Origin: a virus
Length of the DNA: 24,311 nt
IMG/VR virus record: IMGVR_UViG_3300012000_000001
Coordinates: 1-24,311 of that record
Strand: one strand, 5' to 3'
The number at the start of each line of letters is the position of its first letter. Position 1 is the stretch's first letter. The position numbers and the translations under genes were made by a program. This document shows positions 1,925 through 24,172 of this stretch, piece after piece. The notes under the pieces are model-generated. The model searched no databases, had not been told where the DNA came from, and was given only the letters and a program-made list of their open reading frames with translations.

Positions 1925-2253
1925 TTACCTCATCAGGTTGATTGTTGACACCACAGAAACCTGTTTCGATATCGGATCAAACACACGAATCTGAACAACA
2001 TTAGTTCCACGATGGAACCAGCTTCTATTAAAAGGAATATTAAATCCATGATACGAGCTGCCTATAGTATACTGAAGTGCTGGTCGATACTGATTAGCCC
2101 ACTGATATGCTACGAATCTGCCATTCACCCATACTCTTACAAGAACAGGAGAAGCCCCAGACCCCACTGTTTATCAATATATGGATCATTAGGAACAACG
2201 GACAATAGAGCTTTAGACTCTAATCTCTCTATACCCAGAACTTTTTTGTCCAT
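1925..2253 (-). pseudogene. Frameshifted secreted protein with planctomycete-type LE-x-(R/K) N-terminus
   Basis: Read from ATG 2253 (AAGGACG upstream), the protein starts MDKKVLGIERLESKALLSVV and stops early at 2137. A single extra G in the GGGG run (2162-2165) would join it to the frame ending at 1925, giving about 109 aa; the total length (329 nt) is one base short of a multiple of three. ERLESKALLS resembles the LE-x-R-x-LLS motif near the N-terminus of many planctomycete surface proteins (family knowledge, from memory), and PNDPYIDKQWG resembles the start of mature S8 subtilases. The second part (VRVWVNG...NQYRPAL...HGFNIPF...VQIRVFD) looks like a small beta domain appended to secreted proteins. 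So this may be an internally deleted secreted protein, with a frameshift that is real, programmed, or an assembly error. It follows glmS by 82 nt on the same strand. Confidence 0.6.
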
Positions 2254-2296
2254 CACGGCGTCCTTGCGAAATTTGTAGAAAAATCTGACTCTTCGC

Positions 2297-2324
2297 AATT
2301 TAACCGAAAAATTTGTTTTGTCAA
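2297..2324 (-). promoter_or_regulatory. Weak candidate promoter for the gene at 1925-2253
   Basis: Minus strand: TTGACA (2319-2324), 16-nt spacer, TAAATT (2297-2302, 4 of 6 matches to TATAAT), located in the gap between glmS and the frameshifted gene. Only the -35 is strong. Confidence 0.3.
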
Positions 2325-2335
2325 CATCACAGTGG

Positions 2336-4135
2336 CTACTCAACCGTTACACTTTTTGCTAGATTCCTAGGTTTGTCAACATTAAGACCCAACCCAACCG
2401 CACAATAATAGGATAGTAATTGCACAGGTACTACAGCCAAGAACGGAGCCAGCATATCCATAATGGGTGGAACTTTAATATTATTAGAATCATCTAATCC
2501 AATAGATATAACCGGCCCACCTCGTGCTTGTATCTCTTGAATATTGTTTTGCAACTTACTATACTGTTCTATATTATTTCCTATCACCACAGTTGGGGTT
2601 AGTTCATCAATCAGGGCCAACGGCCCATGTTTCATTTCTGCTGCCGCATATCCTTCAGCATGTATATAACTAATTTCTTTAAGCTTTAAAGCCCCCTCCA
2701 ATGCGATAGGAAAATTATATCCTCGTCCCAAAAACAAGCAATCCTTCATCCCCATATACCACTGCGACACATCTTGAATAATATCTGCCGTCTGTAGTGT
2801 TTGATTAATTAGACTAGGCAGTTCTAAAATGCTATGAATAATGCTTTTTCGTAAAAGACTATTTTTATTTTGATTTTGTTGTATCCACAGTGCTAATAAT
2901 AACAGCACCAGAACCTGATTAACGAATGTTTTCGTACTTGCAACACCTATCTCCACCCCAGACCTTAAAAAGATACCACAATCCGTCATCCTCGCCATAG
3001 AAGAATTAGGAACATTACATATTCCAATAATAATTGCATTATGTTCTTTAGCCTTTTGAAGAGCCGCTATAGTATCTGCTGTTTCGCCACTTTGACTAAT
3101 TCCTATAACAATATCTTTATCTTTATGAGCTGTTTTACGATATCTATATTCACTAGCGTATTCAACACTCACTTTAATATTAGTTAATTCTTCTATATAG
3201 TATTTACCAATCAATCCAGCATTCCAGCTAGACCCACAAGCTAATATAGTAATATGATGAGCTTCAGATAATATTTTCTCATAACCTATAAGGCCCCCCA
3301 ATTTCACACACCCATCACCCAACCGGCCACTGCAACACCTGATAATACTTTCTGGTTGCTCATATATCTCTTTAAGCATGTAAAACTCATAAGCCCCCTT
3401 CTCAGATGGCAACCTATGATCAAGTACCTTTTCTATCTCATAATCAATTCCAACCCCATGAGTCATATCATAGGTAATAATTTGATTACTAATTTCACAG
3501 ACAGTGTTGTCTTTGACATAGACTAAATCAGAAATACCATCGTCTATACCAAGCTTATCTGAAGATATATAATATTCATCGTCTCCAACACCGATAATTA
3601 AAGAACTGCCCTTCTTAGCACACACCAGAGTTGTAGGATCATTTATATCGACCAACACAATAGCATAGGCCCCCACAATCTGCCCCAATGCTAGCTTAGT
3701 AGCTTCAAATAAAGATAAGTTATTTTTAATTAATATATTATAAACTAAATATAATAAAGCCTCACTATCAGTATCACTTTTAAAAGGATACTCAGATAAC
3801 GACTCTTTAATTTCTTTATAATTTTCAATAATACCATTATGAACCAAAGCTAATCTATTATCATATGTTACATGAGGATGACAGTTGCTTACTGACGGTT
3901 TTCCATGAGTGGCCCAGCGAGTATGGGATAGTCCACAGTATGATTTTAAGGACACTTCGCCCACCAGCTCTTTTAAAGACTGTACCGATCCTACGGCCTT
4001 ATATGTTTTAAGTTCCGTTCCACAAACATAACAGGCGCCGGAACTATCATAGCCCCGGTATTCTAGGGATGATAGTTTGTCTATAAGATCAGACGAACAC
4101 TCATTTTTACCTAAATAAGCAACTATGCCACACAT
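2336..4135 (-). CDS. glmS: Glucosamine-fructose-6-phosphate aminotransferase (isomerizing)
   Basis: A 599-aa cytosolic enzyme that makes glucosamine-6-phosphate from fructose-6-phosphate and glutamine, the entry step to UDP-GlcNAc. The length is typical for the family. It starts MCGIVAYLG, exposing the Cys2 nucleophile of the Ntn-type glutaminase domain (about residues 1-220, with LEYRGYDSSG and SHTRWATHG). Two SIS sugar-isomerase domains follow (about 285-590) with CGSSWNAG, SQSGETADT, STKTF, EGALKLKEISYIHAEGY and the C-terminal DKPRNLAKSVTVE. All expected key motifs are present, so it should be active. The ATG lies 1 nt from the stop of the upstream fucose synthase gene, which implies translational coupling and leaves no room for a glmS ribozyme leader. 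An AT-rich gene, like its upstream neighbour. GlmM and GlmU steps are not encoded here and would come from the host. Confidence 0.96.
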   Translation of the reverse strand: MCGIVAYLGKNECSSDLIDKLSSLEYRGYDSSGACYVCGTELKTYKAVGSVQSLKELVGEVSLKSYCGLSHTRWATHGKPSVSNCHPHVTYDNRLALVHNGIIENYKEIKESLSEYPFKSDTDSEALLYLVYNILIKNNLSLFEATKLALGQIVGAYAIVLVDINDPTTLVCAKKGSSLIIGVGDDEYYISSDKLGIDDGISDLVYVKDNTVCEISNQIITYDMTHGVGIDYEIEKVLDHRLPSEKGAYEFYMLKEIYEQPESIIRCCSGRLGDGCVKLGGLIGYEKILSEAHHITILACGSSWNAGLIGKYYIEELTNIKVSVEYASEYRYRKTAHKDKDIVIGISQSGETADTIAALQKAKEHNAIIIGICNVPNSSMARMTDCGIFLRSGVEIGVASTKTFVNQVLVLLLLALWIQQNQNKNSLLRKSIIHSILELPSLINQTLQTADIIQDVSQWYMGMKDCLFLGRGYNFPIALEGALKLKEISYIHAEGYAAAEMKHGPLALIDELTPTVVIGNNIEQYSKLQNNIQEIQARGGPVISIGLDDSNNIKVPPIMDMLAPFLAVVPVQLLSYYCAVGLGLNVDKPRNLAKSVTVE

Positions 4136-8428: not shown

Positions 8429-8696
8429 ACGCAATTTTGATGATCCAGAATATAAAAAATGGAGAACTAACGTATACAAAAGAGATAAACATCAATGTCA
8501 ATGGCCTGGGTGTAGTACAAAGAAAAAACTAAATGCGCATCATATTAAAACATGGGCCCAGTTTCCTGGTTTAAGATTTGATGTTAATAACGGTATCACA
8601 TTATGCTATGCCCATCATAAACTTATTAAAGGATTAGAACATATATACGAAGCAGTATTCTTAAAAATATTAGCAGATAAAAAAACAAATGACTAA
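8421..8696 (+). CDS. HNH endonuclease
   Basis: A 91-aa protein starting at ATG 8421 (MFKRNFDDPEYKKWR). It has the full HNH beta-beta-alpha metal site: Cys26 and Cys31 (CQWPGC), the His40-His41 pair (LNAHHIK), Asn56-Asn57 (VNNGITLC), and Cys62, His65 and His66 (CYAHH). Small HNH proteins next to large terminase genes assist DNA cleavage in packaging in several HK97-like phages (family knowledge); the placement here fits. A homing enzyme is less likely, as the gene sits in an operon with 8-nt overlaps at both ends and no intron is seen. Confidence 0.88.
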   Translation: MFKRNFDDPEYKKWRTNVYKRDKHQCQWPGCSTKKKLNAHHIKTWAQFPGLRFDVNNGITLCYAHHKLIKGLEHIYEAVFLKILADKKTND

Positions 8697-9168
8697 TTTA
8701 AATAACTTTACCATCATCATAGACACCCGAGAACAACAACCTTGGGTATTTAATAACTATACTACAGCTAATCGTAAGCTAGATACGGGTGATTACAGTA
8801 TAGAAGGACTAGAGCATCTATTATGTATTGAGCGTAAAAAAAGCGCTAGTGAATTTGCTAACAATATTATCGAAAGCAGATTTAAAGATGTTATTATGAG
8901 AATGAGTAATATGAAATACTCGTTTTTATTATTAGAATTTGATCTAGAAGATTTACTAATCTATCCCATAGGGTCAACAGTACCCAAAAAAATGTGGGAT
9001 AAAATCAAAATTAGTCCAGCATTTTTGATTAAGAATATTTTAGACCTAGAACTATTACATAATATTAAAGTTGTATTTTGTGGAGATGCAACCAATGCAG
9101 CTAAATTAGCAGAGATGATTCTTAAAAAAATTCATTATCTAGAAGTAGTGAAACAAAATAATGGTTAA
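8689..9168 (+). CDS. ERCC4 (XPF)-type nuclease
   Basis: A 159-aa protein with the nuclease core of the ERCC4 domain: IIIDTREQQPW (Asp12, Arg14, Glu15), TGDYSIEG (Gly34-Asp35) and LCIERKKSASEF (Glu48-Arg49-Lys50). These are the metal-binding and catalytic residues of XPF-type structure-specific nucleases. The length indicates a nuclease domain alone, without helicase or tandem helix-hairpin-helix. It probably cuts branched or flapped DNA, and its position between the HNH gene and the large terminase suggests a role in trimming replicated DNA before packaging (inference). No ribosome binding site is seen; translation is probably coupled through the 8-nt overlaps ATGACTAA and ATGGTTAA. Confidence 0.85.
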   Translation: MTNLNNFTIIIDTREQQPWVFNNYTTANRKLDTGDYSIEGLEHLLCIERKKSASEFANNIIESRFKDVIMRMSNMKYSFLLLEFDLEDLLIYPIGSTVPKKMWDKIKISPAFLIKNILDLELLHNIKVVFCGDATNAAKLAEMILKKIHYLEVVKQNNG

Positions 9169-17368: not shown

Positions 17369-19540
17369 ATGGCTGTTCAAACATTAATTCAGGTTCGTAG
17401 AGGCACAGCAAGCGAATGGAGAATAGCCAATTCAACGCTAAGCGCTGGTGAATGGGGTTTTGAAACAGACTCAAAAAGGTATAAAATAGGTGATGGTCTA
17501 ACATCATGGAATAGTTTGCCCTATTCGTCTATATTGCCATCTTCTAGCGATCTTTCTGGAGCAAGTGGTATAGCAGTTTCATTTACTGCAAACTCTGGCA
17601 TACCGGTTACTATCTCCGTTACTGGTATTAACTCATCACAAGTTACTAATTTCAATAGCGCGGTAAGTGGACTATTGCCAGTTAAGAGTATCACAGCAGG
17701 AAATAATATTACCGTTACTCCTAGTGGAGATAATGGTTTTGTAATTAGCTCTCCCGTAAATGAGAATACTGTTAAAGACATTATAGGCTCCACCATTGTT
17801 GGCGTGAGTGGGATTAGAGCAAGTTATGATAGCGTTGGTAAATTAGAAACCATCTCAGTTACTGGATTAACAAGCTCTTATATTGGAGACTTCAATACCT
17901 CAGTAAGCGGACTATTAGGTGTTAAGAGCCTGATTCAAGGTACCGGTATAGGCATTTCAAATGCTGGAGGAAATCAGACAATTAGTATTACTGGTATTCC
18001 AACATCTTTAATTACCAATTTTGCTAGTGGTGTCAATACCCTTATTGATAATGCTGTTAGTGCAAGTATTGTTGGTGGTAGTGGTGTTGATATTGTATAC
18101 AATAGTGGCACAAATACACTTACTATCAGCAGTGCTCTAACTGCAGGTAGTGGCATAGCATTAACTCATAATAGTGGAAATTATGTTGTTAGTCTAAGTG
18201 ATCCTACTATTCAACTAGTAGAGATCACAGACCTATCTTCTAACGCTAGAAGCTTTTTACTAACACCAAGTAGCAATAATCTTGCAACTCTTGTTACTGA
18301 TGAAACAGGTACCGGAAGTTTAGTATTTTCTAACAGTCCCACACTTAGTGGAGTTACTATTAATGGTAATCTTACTGTTAGTGGTAGTGGTCTAGTTGCT
18401 AGTAATGTTAATGACTTTAATACTGCTGTTAGAACCAATCGCTTGGATCAAATGGCTGTTCCTACAGGGAATGTGTCATTTAATAACGTTAAGATTACTA
18501 GTTTGGCAGATCCGGTTAGTGATCAAGATGCTGCTACAAAAGCATACGTAGATGCTGCACGAATGGGTCTTGATGTTAAACAAAGTGTTAGAGTTGCTAC
18601 CACAGACAGTATAACACTATCTGGAACCCAAACTATTGATGGGGTTGCTGTTGTAGCTGGTGATAGAGTATTGGTAAAGAATCAGACTACTGGTAGTCAA
18701 AATGGTATCTATACGGTAGCTGCTGGTTCTTGGAGTAGAGCGTCTGATGCAGACACTACCGCAAAAGTTACAGCAGGATTATTTACTTTCGTAACCGAAG
18801 GTACTGTTAATGCTGATAGTGGATGGGTAATTACTACTAATGATGAAATAGTGCTTGGTACCACCGCTCTAGTATTTGCTCAATTTTCTGGTGCTGGCCA
18901 GATAACTGCTGGTGCTGGTTTAACAAAGAATGGTAATACTATAGATGCTGTTGGTACAGCTGGTCGTATAGTTGTTAATGCTGATAATATTGATCTTGAT
19001 ACGGTAAGTCAAACAGATGGCAGCGGCTCGTCTGGTACTAGTTTTGTACAAAGCGTTACAAGAGATTCTTATGGACGAGTAACTGGAGTAACAACAGCCT
19101 CAGTACAAGATGCTACAACGTCTGCTAAGGGTATAGCTAGTTTTGATAGTGGAGATTTTAGTGTTTCTTCTGGCGCCGTAAGTATCAAAGCTAGTGGTGT
19201 CGATAATTCTCAATTAGCTAACAGCTCTGTAACTATTGGTTCAACATCAGTTAGTCTTGGAGGAAGCATAACTTCCGTATCGGGACTAACTAGCGTTTCT
19301 AGCACATCATTTGTTGGTTCTCTTAGTGGTACGGCTACCAACGCTTTGAATATTGAGGTGGATGTAGCAACTACTGGAACTAATAATCTAGTTTTTGTAA
19401 ATGGTACCGATGGAAACCTCAAACCAATTGTTAATGATAAATTAAGAATTAATTTGAGTAGCAATGAACTATTAGGCTCGTCCAACACTACCCCAGCCAC
19501 AACATTGAAATACTTTATTATAGATGGTGGAACACCATAA
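17369..19540 (+). CDS. Tail fibre protein 1 with Mtd-type N-terminal domain
   Basis: A 723-aa protein; AGGAG lies 8 nt before the ATG. Residues 1-52 (LIQVRRGTASEWRIAN...GEWGFETDSKRYKIGDGLTSW) are the domain seen at the N-terminus of major tropism determinants and many fibres, which attaches or trimerises them. Beta-repeat modules follow (about 95-120 and 175-200, FNSAVSGLLPVKSITAGNNI, FNTSVSGLLGVKSLIQGTGI), then DQDAATKAYVDAARMGLDVKQSVRVATT (about 388) and TIDGVAVVAGDRVLVKNQ, the common fibre-shaft module. After it come NGIYTV and GLTKNGNTIDAV. The C-terminus is not a recognised receptor-binding domain. It is a cell-surface contact protein; a similar N-terminus starts the fibre at 22700. Confidence 0.9.
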   Translation: MAVQTLIQVRRGTASEWRIANSTLSAGEWGFETDSKRYKIGDGLTSWNSLPYSSILPSSSDLSGASGIAVSFTANSGIPVTISVTGINSSQVTNFNSAVSGLLPVKSITAGNNITVTPSGDNGFVISSPVNENTVKDIIGSTIVGVSGIRASYDSVGKLETISVTGLTSSYIGDFNTSVSGLLGVKSLIQGTGIGISNAGGNQTISITGIPTSLITNFASGVNTLIDNAVSASIVGGSGVDIVYNSGTNTLTISSALTAGSGIALTHNSGNYVVSLSDPTIQLVEITDLSSNARSFLLTPSSNNLATLVTDETGTGSLVFSNSPTLSGVTINGNLTVSGSGLVASNVNDFNTAVRTNRLDQMAVPTGNVSFNNVKITSLADPVSDQDAATKAYVDAARMGLDVKQSVRVATTDSITLSGTQTIDGVAVVAGDRVLVKNQTTGSQNGIYTVAAGSWSRASDADTTAKVTAGLFTFVTEGTVNADSGWVITTNDEIVLGTTALVFAQFSGAGQITAGAGLTKNGNTIDAVGTAGRIVVNADNIDLDTVSQTDGSGSSGTSFVQSVTRDSYGRVTGVTTASVQDATTSAKGIASFDSGDFSVSSGAVSIKASGVDNSQLANSSVTIGSTSVSLGGSITSVSGLTSVSSTSFVGSLSGTATNALNIEVDVATTGTNNLVFVNGTDGNLKPIVNDKLRINLSSNELLGSSNTTPATTLKYFIIDGGTP

Positions 19541-19607: not shown

Positions 19608-21347
19608 ATGAAAAACGGCAAAATATTTATTAAAAATGGCCAACCTTATGTGGTGCCACTTCGCTTGGTAGATGGTGTTTTGTCTGGTTATGTTGAAGGA
19701 AATATAGCGGCAACTCCAACGGCTACGCCAAGCCCTTCAGCTACCGTCACACCAACGGCCACACCAACATCCACACCAACACCCACACTAACACGAACTC
19801 CCACTAATACTCCAACAACCACCATAACCAATACTCCCACTTCCAGTGCTATACCGGCTACACCCACACCAACTACTACTGCAACTCCAACTTTAACAGC
19901 CAGTATTACTCGGACTCCTACACAGACAGTCGCAGCTTCAGTTTCTTCCCTAGCGATTGTGAGCGGATCTGCTCAAGGGAGCGGCACGTCAGCATCTCCC
20001 TATTTAGTAGCAGCTGATACATCTCCATCTCCAATATATCAGGCAAATGTACCTGGGCTACTGACAGTAAACTTTACCAGTAGAAGATTCTTTGATTACA
20101 ACTGCGGAAAATCTGGATGCTCACAAGGTAGACACAACGAAGGTGTTTATTTCTTATGGCCAAATGGTATTTATTACGAACAAATACGAACTAATATAGA
20201 TAATTTTACAACTTCGACTGGTTTTGGGTATGAAGCATTTTTAACAAATGCCTCTAGAAATACCTTAACAACAATTAGCTACCCTATGCACGCCGGACAA
20301 AGATTAAGAATGAGCCAACATTCTCAGGCTGTGGGTGACGACCGATCTGCCCCCGATAACAACAGACAACTTACAAACACAAGAATAAGCTTTACGCCAG
20401 CGAGTAGTAATTTTAGCATAACAGCAATAGGATCCAGAAGCTTACATGGAAATGGAACCGCAGCAACTCCTTATACCACAACAAGTCGATACGACACAAA
20501 TCCTAATGAGAGAACATTAGTATTCAGGGCAAATGGAAATGGTGTTGTGGCCGTGTCCTGCGACAACATGGGCTATGATGCTGTAGCACCATTTAATGTT
20601 TTAGTAGGAGGAACAGCTAACAGTTTTTCTGGAGCAGTTTTAAAAGATAAAAATAATCTTTTCTCTTTTGCCAGATCTGCTAATAACACTATAAGCAGAC
20701 CTAATTATTATCATCGACCAAGATTCATCTGGGTTAACGATGGTGAAATATTCAGTCTAGCTTATCGTGAGTGCAACAAGAGTTCTTGTTGGTGGAGAGA
20801 AGTAAACACAGCATATGAGCCAACAGTAGTATGGGCTGTACCAAACTCTATATCTGCAAATGGTCTGTTTTTGATGAACTACTCGCCATTTCCAGTAGAT
20901 TTTGGGCTGCCAACTGTTGGCTGGCAGGGGCAAGTTTTACCAGGGAATAGTCCAGTTTATTGGTCTGGTCTTGGAACATCCTCTAGTCCAGCCAATATGA
21001 ATGATTGGAGTGCTAGCTTACACTTCATTGGCTATGGAGCAACAATCTACACATCCCTTAAGGGTACAATTTCTTTTAATTATCAAATTAGAGATCAACA
21101 ATGCAGTAAAAGTGGGTGTGTTTGGCCAAATCTTTTTGTTCAGATGACAACTAGACATGGTATATCGGGAGGATATGGCAACAGCAATGGCGGGCAGGTT
21201 TTATCAACAACTAATGTTTCAAACGGATTAAGTTCAGGAACACATACTGTAAACGTGTCAGCATTCAATAGCATTTCCTTTCTTTCTGCTAGTTCTGCGA
21301 GTGCATTTAAAATCACCAATCTAGTATTCACACCGAGCGTATCATGA
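19608..21347 (+). CDS. Thr/Pro-rich adhesin with repeated Cys-x-Lys-Ser-x-Cys motifs
   Basis: A 579-aa protein with AGG about 9 nt before the ATG. Residues 1-34 (MKNGKIFIKNGQPYVVPLRL) look like a virion-binding N-terminus. Residues 35-107 are a Thr/Pro repeat linker (TPTATP, TPTRTPT types), probably extended and a possible modification target. Then come three beta-type units opened by GSGTSASPY (124), GNGTAATPY (281) and GLGTSSSPA (454). CGKSGC (166-171), CNKSSC (389-394) and CSKSGC (499-504) could form disulfides or metal loops at the tip. No enzyme domain is seen. The stop codon overlaps the sulfotransferase start (ATGA), which ties it to the two enzymes downstream. It is probably a second type of fibre or head/tail adhesin. 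Confidence 0.75.
   Translation: MKNGKIFIKNGQPYVVPLRLVDGVLSGYVEGNIAATPTATPSPSATVTPTATPTSTPTPTLTRTPTNTPTTTITNTPTSSAIPATPTPTTTATPTLTASITRTPTQTVAASVSSLAIVSGSAQGSGTSASPYLVAADTSPSPIYQANVPGLLTVNFTSRRFFDYNCGKSGCSQGRHNEGVYFLWPNGIYYEQIRTNIDNFTTSTGFGYEAFLTNASRNTLTTISYPMHAGQRLRMSQHSQAVGDDRSAPDNNRQLTNTRISFTPASSNFSITAIGSRSLHGNGTAATPYTTTSRYDTNPNERTLVFRANGNGVVAVSCDNMGYDAVAPFNVLVGGTANSFSGAVLKDKNNLFSFARSANNTISRPNYYHRPRFIWVNDGEIFSLAYRECNKSSCWWREVNTAYEPTVVWAVPNSISANGLFLMNYSPFPVDFGLPTVGWQGQVLPGNSPVYWSGLGTSSSPANMNDWSASLHFIGYGATIYTSLKGTISFNYQIRDQQCSKSGCVWPNLFVQMTTRHGISGGYGNSNGGQVLSTTNVSNGLSSGTHTVNVSAFNSISFLSASSASAFKITNLVFTPSVS
19711..19928 (+). repeat. Degenerate Thr-Pro coding repeat
   Basis: About 73 codons dominated by ACN-CCN pairs (Thr-Pro), giving an extended linker in the adhesin. 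The repeats are degenerate at the third base, so the protein pattern rather than the DNA is conserved. The local base composition (C-rich, T-poor) differs from the flanking gene. Confidence 0.85.
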
Positions 21348-21883
21348 AAGGCGTTTGCGCATTACACAACGGTAAAGCTTTAGCTCTTGTTACAAGAAGC
21401 GGAAGTCATGCATTAATGAATTTGATGCTTCCAAAAGACCATATACAAACTCACCCAGAATGTCATAAAGATCAAAAGTGGCATCCTATAATGAACTTAC
21501 GAGGACATGATTTGAAAATGGGCTTACCAGAATGTGAAGTTTGTTGCATGGTAAGAAATCCCGTAGATAGATTCAGAAGCTCTTGCGCTAGACGGAATAA
21601 AACTGTTGAAGAAGGTTTATTAGAGGATGAGGTTCACTTTTGGAGCATGGAAAGTATGGGCCTTTTAAATGACAAAATTAAATACTTCTTATTTCCAGAA
21701 CAGATTGACGAATGTGCAGCTTGGCTAGGATTACCAACGCCTGTGCCGAGATTAAACGAAGAAAAAGATGATAAGAAACCAGTTTTAAGCGAGAGCCAGC
21801 TTGAACTAGTGGTCAAACAGTACTATAATGATAATGAACTATATCAAAAACTGAAGGAGAAATATTATGGCAAACAATTTTGA
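21344..21883 (+). CDS. Phage sulfotransferase (PAPS-dependent type)
   Basis: A 179-aa protein starting 4 nt inside the adhesin gene (ATGA). TRSGSHALMN (17-26) fits the 5'-phosphosulfate-binding loop and CMVRNPVDRFRSS (68-80, Arg71, Ser79/80) the 3'-phosphate-binding motif of sulfotransferases. The C-terminal LSESQLELVVKQYYNDNELYQKLKEKY is the usual final helix of the family. These enzymes move sulfate from PAPS to sugars, or to tyrosines in proteins. The short length suggests a minimal core. The catalytic base is not certain; His22 or a His in the middle region (HPECHKDQKWHP) are candidates. Overlap with the adhesin gene suggests the adhesin, or a glycan on it, as substrate (inference). Confidence 0.78.
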   Translation: MKGVCALHNGKALALVTRSGSHALMNLMLPKDHIQTHPECHKDQKWHPIMNLRGHDLKMGLPECEVCCMVRNPVDRFRSSCARRNKTVEEGLLEDEVHFWSMESMGLLNDKIKYFLFPEQIDECAAWLGLPTPVPRLNEEKDDKKPVLSESQLELVVKQYYNDNELYQKLKEKYYGKQF

Positions 21884-22457
21884 TGGAAAAGTTTTATTAG
21901 TTCCAAATTTTCTAATAGCTGAAGAAATCCAAATTTTAAAAGATTGGACAAACAAGGCTGTAGAAGAAGGTCAGTTTGTTGACGGAATAACTGGTGACTG
22001 GGATAAGAAAGAATTTAGCACAACAAAATTAAGACTCACAAATCGAATGAGTCAAAATATAAATTATCCTGATTTGGTTAAAGCTTTGCAAGACCGAATT
22101 CGTCAAACAATTCCATTAACAGCAAATGCTCCAGTTATTGATGGACACGGAAAAGATGGAGTTGTTGTGAGTGTAACCTATAACGACGGTGATGTTTACA
22201 AGCATAAAGATCCTAGTGTGGGCGAGGGGGTTGTTGGATTAAGATGTAATATTCTTGCCAGCAAAGCAGAGAGTGGTGGTAGTATTCATGTTGAAGATAA
22301 GACTTATAATTTAAATGAAGGTGATATGATGTGCTATTTAGTAACAGAACTTTATCATAGTGTTGATGTTTGTCACGGAAATAATCCACGAACACTATTT
22401 ATGTTTGGATTTGTTGTTGATAAAGATAGCTGGAATAGTCAGCTAGATATACTATAG
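21867..22457 (+). CDS. 2-oxoglutarate/Fe(II)-dependent oxygenase
   Basis: A 196-aa protein with AAGGAG 7 nt before the ATG; it overlaps the sulfotransferase gene by 17 nt. The double-stranded beta-helix iron site is visible: His113-x-Asp115 in VYKHKDPS and distal His164 in ELYHSVDV, with Arg175 in NNPRTLFMFGFVV as the 2-oxoglutarate ligand. LRCNILASKAESGGSIHVED and LNEGDMMCYL are the expected core strands. Such enzymes hydroxylate prolines, lysines or other groups, and phage versions are common with unknown targets. Given its neighbour, hydroxylation of the Pro/Thr-rich adhesin linker is an attractive possibility (inference). Confidence 0.85.
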   Translation: MANNFDGKVLLVPNFLIAEEIQILKDWTNKAVEEGQFVDGITGDWDKKEFSTTKLRLTNRMSQNINYPDLVKALQDRIRQTIPLTANAPVIDGHGKDGVVVSVTYNDGDVYKHKDPSVGEGVVGLRCNILASKAESGGSIHVEDKTYNLNEGDMMCYLVTELYHSVDVCHGNNPRTLFMFGFVVDKDSWNSQLDIL

Positions 22458-22699: not shown

Positions 22700-24172
22700 A
22701 TGGCCGTAAATGATCTTATACAAATACGCAAAGGAACAGCTTCGGCATGGACTTCGGCCAATCCGGTATTAGCTAGCGGCGAGCCAGGATATGATTTGAC
22801 CAATAAGATTTTGAAAATTGGAGATGGAACATCTAACTGGACTAGTTTAGCTAGTATAAACCTTACCTCGTCTAATATTACCGATTTTAATACAGCTATT
22901 AGCGGAATCCTTCCAGTTAAGAATATAGTTGCTGGTAATAATATTACTATAAGTTCGTCTAGTGGAATTTATACTATTAATAGTACAGCAAGTGGAGGTG
23001 GGGGATCGGCATCGGCAAGGGGAAATATTACCACCACAGGAATACTATCTTCTTTTAATATTGCTGAAGGTTATTCTGTTGGTTATTTAGATTTATTCCA
23101 AAATGGTGTTAAATTATTAAGCGGTAGTGATTTTATTGCAACAGATGGTAACTCTGTTGGTCTAGTTAATAGCGTACCATCGGGAACAGTTCTAGAATAT
23201 ATTACTTTATTACCCTCTATTAGTTCTAATAATTATGTTAAACTAGATAATATCAGTTCATCTTTTAATGGCTCGTCTACATCATTTGGATTAGCAGTCA
23301 GCGGAACAGCATATTATCCTGTTAGTGCAAATACTTTAGGAATTTATGTTGGTGGCGTAGCCCAAGAACCAATTTTTGCATATAGTGTTAGTGGATCAAA
23401 TATAGTTTTTACTGAACCTCCAGCTAGTGGATTAACTTTCTGGGGAGTCGGTTATGGAACAACAACGGTGGCCACATTAAACGGAATAGCCCCCGGCTCA
23501 TCTGGATTTCCATCTATTAGTTCATCAAATGATTTGACCACAGGATTCTATTTTCCATCTGGTGGTTCTATTAGTATAGCTAGTTCTGGATATGATAGAT
23601 TTAAAATTAATAGTAATGGTAATGTTGTTTTTGGTGGACAAAATATTAATAGTTTAAGATATGTAGATATTAATAATATCAATAATTTATCAAACGCTGG
23701 TAGTATTCTAAGATTAGTTACTAGTAATGTTTCTGGTGTATCTATTAATGATACTACTAGTGCAGATTTGGTCAAATATAGTAATGGCCAATTTGGTATT
23801 AATAATAATGAAAGAGATCCTGCTGCTTTTATATCTTTTAATGTTGGTGTTACAGAAAAATTACGGATAACTTCGTCAGGCAATATCGGAATTGGTACTA
23901 CCAACCCAACAAGTAGTTTACATGTTATTGGTAATATTACCGCTAATAGTGGTAATTTTACTAATAATTTACGAGTTAATAATATTAATGTTAGTGTTAG
24001 TGGACACTCTCATACGGTTAGTGATATTGCTAATTTTAATAGTAGTGTTAGTGGTTTATTGCCCATTACTAATATAATTGCTGGAAGTGGAATTAATGTT
24101 GCTATTAGTGGTACCACAGCTATTATAACTAATGTTGGATTAAAACTTGGTACCGTCATGGCTTTAAGTTAA
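22700..24172 (+). CDS. Tail fibre protein 2 with Mtd-type N-terminal domain
   Basis: A 490-aa protein; AGGA lies about 12 nt before the ATG. The N-terminal 55 residues (LIQIRKGTASAWTSANPVLASGEPGYDL...LKIGDGTSNWTSL) match fibre 1 closely, so both probably attach to the same virion site. The module FNTAISGILPVKNIVAGNNITI (about 63-84) recurs near the C-terminus as FNSSVSGLLPITNIIAGSGI (about 446-465). Between them is LRITSSGNIGIGTTNPTSSLHVIG, a common fibre-shaft element, and SGHSHTVSDIANF. No tip domain or intramolecular chaperone is seen; the C-terminus is abrupt (LGTVMALS). It may act together with the next, partly visible protein. Confidence 0.88.
   Translation: MAVNDLIQIRKGTASAWTSANPVLASGEPGYDLTNKILKIGDGTSNWTSLASINLTSSNITDFNTAISGILPVKNIVAGNNITISSSSGIYTINSTASGGGGSASARGNITTTGILSSFNIAEGYSVGYLDLFQNGVKLLSGSDFIATDGNSVGLVNSVPSGTVLEYITLLPSISSNNYVKLDNISSSFNGSSTSFGLAVSGTAYYPVSANTLGIYVGGVAQEPIFAYSVSGSNIVFTEPPASGLTFWGVGYGTTTVATLNGIAPGSSGFPSISSSNDLTTGFYFPSGGSISIASSGYDRFKINSNGNVVFGGQNINSLRYVDINNINNLSNAGSILRLVTSNVSGVSINDTTSADLVKYSNGQFGINNNERDPAAFISFNVGVTEKLRITSSGNIGIGTTNPTSSLHVIGNITANSGNFTNNLRVNNINVSVSGHSHTVSDIANFNSSVSGLLPITNIIAGSGINVAISGTTAIITNVGLKLGTVMALS

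Follow-up and report, generated by a model that had tools for sequence, protein, structure and literature searches.

The first 24,311 bases of the 197,026-base uncultured virus record IMGVR_UViG_3300012000_000001 (G000), hereafter the window, hold three genes that overlap in series: an adhesin, a small sulfotransferase-fold protein and a 2-oxoglutarate (2OG)/Fe(II) oxygenase. Our proposal is a probable self-modification of the phage's receptor-binding tip, of a kind previously undescribed: the sulfotransferase, together with the oxygenase in the clade that carries it (clade A), would modify a short lysine loop of the neighbouring adhesin. From sequence comparison we give this reading a probability of about 0.6. 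Gene order, residue conservation, folds and the way in which the lysine loop varies together with the enzymes are direct observations. As judged by motif, the constant adhesin feature is this loop, and it lies outside the Thr/Pro-rich linker that a preliminary description of the locus had named as the target.

Scans of IMG/VR returned 17 close relatives of the sulfotransferase (117 in total with an alignment-based scan, 80 of them kept) and 29 relatives of the oxygenase. Cellular homologues of either enzyme were dismissed, as scans of 84,980 prokaryote genomes came back empty; within the collections searched, both enzymes are restricted to phages. At 93% identity, 113 sulfotransferase copies from uncultured viral contigs form 51 clusters; many of the records are fragments. 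In nearly all clusters, no more than about 30 nt lie between the sulfotransferase start and the stop codon of a fibre or adhesin gene, and a 4-nt overlap is frequent. The proteins encoded just upstream have matches to fn3, laminin-G, F5/8C and Gly-rich domains as well as virion families. The enzyme tree resolves three main sulfotransferase groups, named clades A, B and C here, of which A has the oxygenase. A Gly-rich adhesin C-terminus accompanies clade C; clade A switches among several adhesin types and retains its oxygenase.

The preliminary description had suggested searching related phages for the whole gene triple, and only part of it recurs. Sulfotransferase and oxygenase return as a pair, 75-90% identical, and close relatives keep it with the same overlap while the upstream adhesin changes completely; identical copies excepted, the window adhesin has no relative at other loci.

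Three copies of the loop are present in the window adhesin and take up six of its seven cysteines; within G000 the strict motif is confined to this protein. When the adhesin was shuffled 20,000 times, two shuffles contained a single copy of the motif and none contained three. At loci with both enzymes, C-x-K-[SGDN]-[SG]-C was counted 29 times in adhesins, unrelated adhesin types among them, and at sulfotransferase-only loci not once. A relaxed form lies nearby at 14 of 15 loci with the pair versus 0 of 32 with the sulfotransferase only. Exact tests on such counts are descriptive, since the sequences share ancestry. The relaxed loops of divergent loci read CDKVGC, CDKTSC, CGKSGNC and CDKGGNNC, with a Cys-less KSG or GKGG in a few.

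Members of a single adhesin family allow a closer comparison: at newly fetched loci, the loop is present in all six that are followed by the pair and in none of the eight others (about 4/4 versus 0/6 with near-copies counted once, the rows being related). One of the loop-less members belongs to a phage (L302/G004) whose enzyme pair is located elsewhere. Ten genomes, largely covered, were also compared for Thr/Pro-rich proteins and loop motifs: 13 of the 14 strict motifs fall in fibre genes directly upstream of the enzyme pair, and three phages lacking the oxygenase have none in 221,000 aa. On this motif evidence the Cys-framed form of the loop goes with clade A, the clade that has the oxygenase as well.

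A loop lysine recurs, in a form that matches the enzyme clade, in clades B and C, which have no oxygenase, and it is this recurrence that ties the lysine to the sulfotransferase. In the Gly-rich adhesins of clade C, one alignment column holds lysine in 29/29 enzyme-followed sequences versus 0/6 other homologues. It is the only column to separate the two sets (the next best differs by 0.59), and none of 500 label permutations matched it; on the best tree of the family, lysine and enzyme change together five times. BLAST divides the clade B adhesins into seven groups, alignable only around K-[DENS]-G-x-Y: eight of 11 match this motif strictly and 10 of 11 retain the lysine. Strict clade motifs in the directly upstream adhesin were finally set against 2,329 other open reading frames (ORFs). 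All three motifs proved enriched: 12/20 versus 14 for clade A, where several of the misses are enzyme ORFs, 8/11 versus 34 for clade B and 24/28 versus 2 for clade C.

The 179-aa protein is a sulfotransferase by its modelled fold and by conservation of its motifs for 3'-phosphoadenosine 5'-phosphosulfate (PAPS), the activity itself being predicted. In the loop resembling a 5'-phosphosulfate-binding (5'-PSB) site, R18, S19 and G20 are invariant in 17 clade A sequences. Across 36 sulfotransferase sequences R18 remains invariant and S21 nearly so, and R71, P73, R76 and F77 of the motif resembling a 3'-phosphate-binding (3'-PB) site are invariant. An AlphaFold2 model built with 17 relatives (predicted local distance difference test, pLDDT, 87) has its best fold matches, in a viral library, among sulfotransferases of phages and giant viruses (P-SSM7, E 1.6e-4, probability 1.0); in the PDB it matches heparan sulfate 3-O-sulfotransferase with an E of only 0.011. 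Clades A, B and C have no Pfam or NCBIfam match, and clade A is below the PHROG cut-off too.

The oxygenase model (pLDDT 83) adopts a double-stranded beta-helix fold with PHD2, Dictyostelium PHD and P. putida P4H as top matches, the first being the Dictyostelium Skp1 prolyl hydroxylase (E 7e-8). It likewise stays below the Pfam, NCBIfam and PHROG cut-offs. The names sulfotransferase and oxygenase, given earlier from motifs, are thus backed by fold matches and sit below family cut-offs. Median ratios of non-synonymous to synonymous substitution (dN/dS) are 0.096 for the sulfotransferase and 0.083 for the oxygenase; such strong purifying selection marks both as functional genes. No phage adenosine 5'-phosphosulfate (APS) kinase was found in 17 records, so PAPS would be supplied by the host, and its synthesis by the phage was rejected.

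Some cassettes contain additional sulfotransferase genes (L010, L013, L015 and L113, at 8.5-9.6 kb; L036, at 8504-9067). A Pfam Sulfotransfer_4 protein (6.3e-25) is among these insertions, which brings three sulfotransferases and the oxygenase into a row. Profile comparison with such neighbouring Sulfotransfer_4 proteins gave no match, and homology of the sulfotransferase to them was not detected.

We now outline how the cassette may work. The sulfotransferase would be a dedicated modifier of the receptor-binding protein encoded immediately upstream. With host-made PAPS bound, it would act on the adhesin lysine loop (C-x-K-x-G-C, three per adhesin here) in the cytosol, ahead of assembly. The clade A oxygenase would probably hydroxylate the same loop first, most simply converting the lysine to a sulfatable hydroxyl; in the clades devoid of oxygenase, sulfate may go onto the lysine nitrogen or a neighbouring hydroxyl. 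Candidate acceptors are the hydroxylysine oxygen, the lysine nitrogen and a nearby Tyr, and the expected outcome is an altered charge at the receptor-binding tip.

The loop as substrate, the atom modified and the effect on binding are what we infer here, and the parts differ in strength. The adjacent adhesin is a likely substrate, and the loop is, somewhat less firmly, a plausible modification site or recognition element. That the lysine itself carries the group is doubtful, and lysine is favoured over proline as oxygenase substrate only through its co-occurrence in the loop. More doubtful still is the broadest form of the proposal: a large phage-restricted sulfotransferase family that sulfates a specific lysine of receptor-binding proteins (on the nitrogen, or on hydroxylysine with the oxygenase), with clade-specific loops that move with the adhesin tip.

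Several points count against modification of the loop. Its motif was defined post hoc, and then tried on later-collected homologues. At the L036/L072 locus the aligned site is only a Cys-less GKGG, at L300 a more distant oxygenase adjoins a loop-less adhesin, and the clade B loop of L065 has no lysine. On the Gly-rich tree, the branches with good support require no more than a single joint change of lysine and enzyme, and the counts are phylogenetically non-independent. Neither the sulfotransferase nor the adhesin found a relative by tblastn in 50,697 phage records, and no named phage or isolate with either came to light. Lysine N-sulfation is, to our knowledge, not an established protein modification, and rather than being the acceptor, the lysine could bind sulfate or a glycan or serve as a recognition element.

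A sugar-binding role for the lysine, which often stands beside an aromatic residue, leads to the main alternative explanation: the enzymes would modify a host surface glycan or its precursor, for receptor change or superinfection exclusion, and lysine and enzyme would co-vary because of a shared receptor. The nearest fold, that of heparan sulfate sulfotransferases, acts on sugars, and the genome holds numerous genes for glycosyltransferases and sugar metabolism. K-aromatic loops could bind sulfated glycans; moreover, the hosts are probably planctomycetes, which live among sulfated polysaccharides. However, a receptor-modifying enzyme need not adjoin the adhesin gene in nearly every lineage, and sulfating the adhesin's own receptor would favour re-adsorption, not exclusion. 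The oxygenase fold, in addition, is nearest to protein hydroxylases. Given the close gene coupling and this fold type, we regard a host glycan as an unlikely substrate.

The linker named by the preliminary description does exist, with up to 42 of 60 residues being T or P. It could receive proline hydroxylation and O-glycosylation or sulfation, perhaps along a Skp1-like pathway (prolyl hydroxylase, PF11397 GlcNAc transferase, fucose). The Dictyostelium enzyme at the head of the oxygenase fold matches would fit, as would a phage PF11397-family glycosyltransferase (7.8e-77) and the GDP-fucose genes. Thr/Pro segments within 5 kb upstream are also somewhat commoner at loci with the pair (8/15) than at sulfotransferase-only loci (4/32). 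Still, linkers occur in phages without the oxygenase, since G013, G017 and G018 have several such proteins, and are missing from phages with it: in the genome comparison G012 has both enzymes and no Thr/Pro-linker protein. Three of the four Thr/Pro proteins of G000 lie far from the enzymes.

These counts and contrasts reject the linker as the enzymes' constant partner, and we consider it quite improbable as their target; related phages do carry the enzymes away from any Thr/Pro adhesin, an outcome that the preliminary description had itself set as a refutation. The fibre-modification cassette first suggested is well supported by its context, a sulfotransferase gene directly behind an adhesin gene in nearly all clusters and two conserved enzymes, but the linker as target is not supported; the suggested link to fucose gained no positive evidence. 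The Skp1-like pathway was set aside, as PF11397 is found in 8 of 33 records, with and without the oxygenase and with no clear link to it, and in G000 is not adjacent to it. We also discarded GT25 as a hydroxylysine glycosyltransferase (no link) and a collagen-like substrate for the window pair (no Gly-X-Y fibre beside it).

It is very unlikely that the sulfotransferase-fold protein is a non-catalytic folding or assembly chaperone of the adhesin tip, positioned like Tfa/gp38: fibre chaperones typically follow the fibre gene immediately and segregate with one kind of adhesin C-terminus, as this protein does, but the invariant residues are cofactor-binding motifs, further sulfotransferase-fold genes (the Pfam-recognised Sulfotransfer_4 included) share the cassette, and the oxygenase would be left unexplained. 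Tail fibre assembly proteins of the Tfa/gp38 type are products of a small gene that immediately follows the fibre gene and is exchanged with the tip domain; the gene position is thus alike, whereas here the fold is different and cofactor-binding residues are conserved.

Modification of the adhesin loop would have a partial parallel in Mimivirus L230, a lysyl hydroxylase/glucosyltransferase that acts on viral collagen-like proteins (review, PMC9614988). L230 is a viral 2OG/Fe(II) oxygenase that hydroxylates a virion-protein lysine before transfer of a second group, as the oxygenase here would. L230 adds glucose to Gly-X-Y collagen, while the present proposal involves a short Cys-framed lysine loop, a phage adhesin and a sulfotransferase partner. 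In fold and PAPS-site motifs the protein described here is like heparan sulfate sulfotransferases and the 'sulfotransferase family' proteins of cyanophages; it differs in being 179 aa long, outside any detectable sequence family and adjacent to an adhesin.

Other viral 2OG oxygenases are the PBCV-1 prolyl 4-hydroxylase (Eriksson 1999, as cited in PMC9301287) and those of cyanophage S-SCSM1 (PMC9602691), and the role of prolyl/lysyl hydroxylase-type genes in viruses has been called uninvestigated or cryptic (PMC9301287; PMC9602691). Identity to them is about 30% at best: the nearest named oxygenase, 30% identical, is from S-SCSM1, in a row of four among tail-fibre genes, and no lysine loop was found near these genes. 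Within the library searched, the literature gave no account of an adhesin-sulfotransferase-oxygenase cassette or of a sulfotransferase dedicated to phage adhesins. Viral prolyl/lysyl hydroxylases are already known; lysine sulfation would be categorically new.

Phage sulfotransferase and 2OG-oxygenase genes are usually filed among auxiliary metabolic genes with no known use; the present loci tie both to receptor-binding proteins. Short candidate sites can be named, six residues in clade A and a single lysine in clade C, and the long-standing question of what these viral enzymes do is turned into a simple mass-spectrometry test. If the proposal is true, post-translational chemistry joins sequence as a means by which phages tune their binding tips, and the family provides compact tools for site-specific protein sulfation.

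The locus is a tail-fibre module, as fibre genes with Mtd_N domains flank it and terminase and portal genes lie upstream (Table 1). The window adhesin has no Pfam family match. The three serial ORFs and both overlaps had been described exactly. The glucosamine-6-phosphate and GDP-fucose genes reported with them are present as well: glmS is above its NCBIfam cut-off, and gmd and a GDP-fucose synthase homologue are recognised below theirs. A diversity-generating retroelement with an Mtd-type target was ruled out, as the 197 kb record has no reverse transcriptase (RVT_1) match.

Table 1 Features of the adhesin-enzyme locus, in window coordinates
Feature	Position	Strand	Basis or remark
Upstream fibre protein with Mtd_N domain (context)	17369..19540	+	Domain match
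Adhesin/fibre protein, 579 aa	19608..21347	+	Proposed substrate; directly 5' of sulfotransferase
Thr/Pro-rich linker of adhesin, residues ~32-99	19701..19904	+	Not the enzymes' constant partner
Lysine loop 1, CGKSGC, adhesin residues 166-171	20103..20120	+	Motif
Lysine loop 2, CNKSSC, adhesin residues 389-394	20772..20789	+	Motif
Lysine loop 3, CSKSGC, adhesin residues 499-504	21102..21119	+	Motif
Adhesin/sulfotransferase overlap, 4 nt	21344..21347	+	Most clusters show the same short gap
Sulfotransferase-fold protein, 179 aa, clade A	21344..21883	+	Fold, motifs, enzyme tree
5'-PSB-like loop T17-R-S-G-S21 (putative PAPS site)	21392..21406	+	Residue conservation
3'-PB-like motif R71-N-P-V-D-R-F77	21554..21574	+	Residue conservation
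Sulfotransferase/oxygenase overlap, 17 nt	21867..21883	+	ORF coordinates; close relatives
2-oxoglutarate/Fe(II) oxygenase, 196 aa, prolyl/lysyl-hydroxylase type fold	21867..22457	+	Fold, invariant residues
Iron-binding H113-K-D115 (predicted)	22203..22211	+	H113, D115 invariant in 14 sequences
Distal iron ligand H164 (predicted)	22356..22358	+	Invariant in 14 sequences
2-oxoglutarate-binding R175 (predicted)	22389..22391	+	Invariant in 14 sequences
Downstream fibre protein with Mtd_N domain (context)	22700..24172	+	Domain match

DUF1501 is a planctomycete hallmark. Outside the window, G000 encodes a DUF1501 protein (5.5e-103) at 177767-179011 (-), and so do five other related records, six of 24 phage records in all; this occurrence suggests planctomycete hosts. 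At 1925-2343 (-) of the window, a short ORF with ERLESKALLSVVPNDPYIDKQWGL resembles a planctomycete LEPRxLLS-type N-terminus and is apparently split off the next ORF.

The PF11397 glycosyltransferase of G000 (147137-148450, +) is of the same family as the GlcNAc transferase that acts on Skp1 hydroxyproline, and is also found in Xanthomonas phage XacN1 and two Stenotrophomonas phages. A GT25 gene is located at 148457-149236 (+), and a cluster of glycosyltransferase and sugar-modifying genes at 139-151 kb. The L113 cassette additionally carries two apparent glycosyltransferases.

Distant oxygenase relatives, with no sulfotransferase, lie in L117 and L120 just upstream of collagen-like fibre genes (L117:9118-11646 and L120:2003-4675; Gly-X-Y, 77-90 repeats). 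In G000, a very long fibre protein with a Thr/Pro linker (70869-75410, +) combines an FGE-sulfatase-type (C-type-lectin-like) domain with DUF285 repeats, and the product of 75856-77295 (+) has a 'GTFDQTGN' N-terminus that resembles its own.

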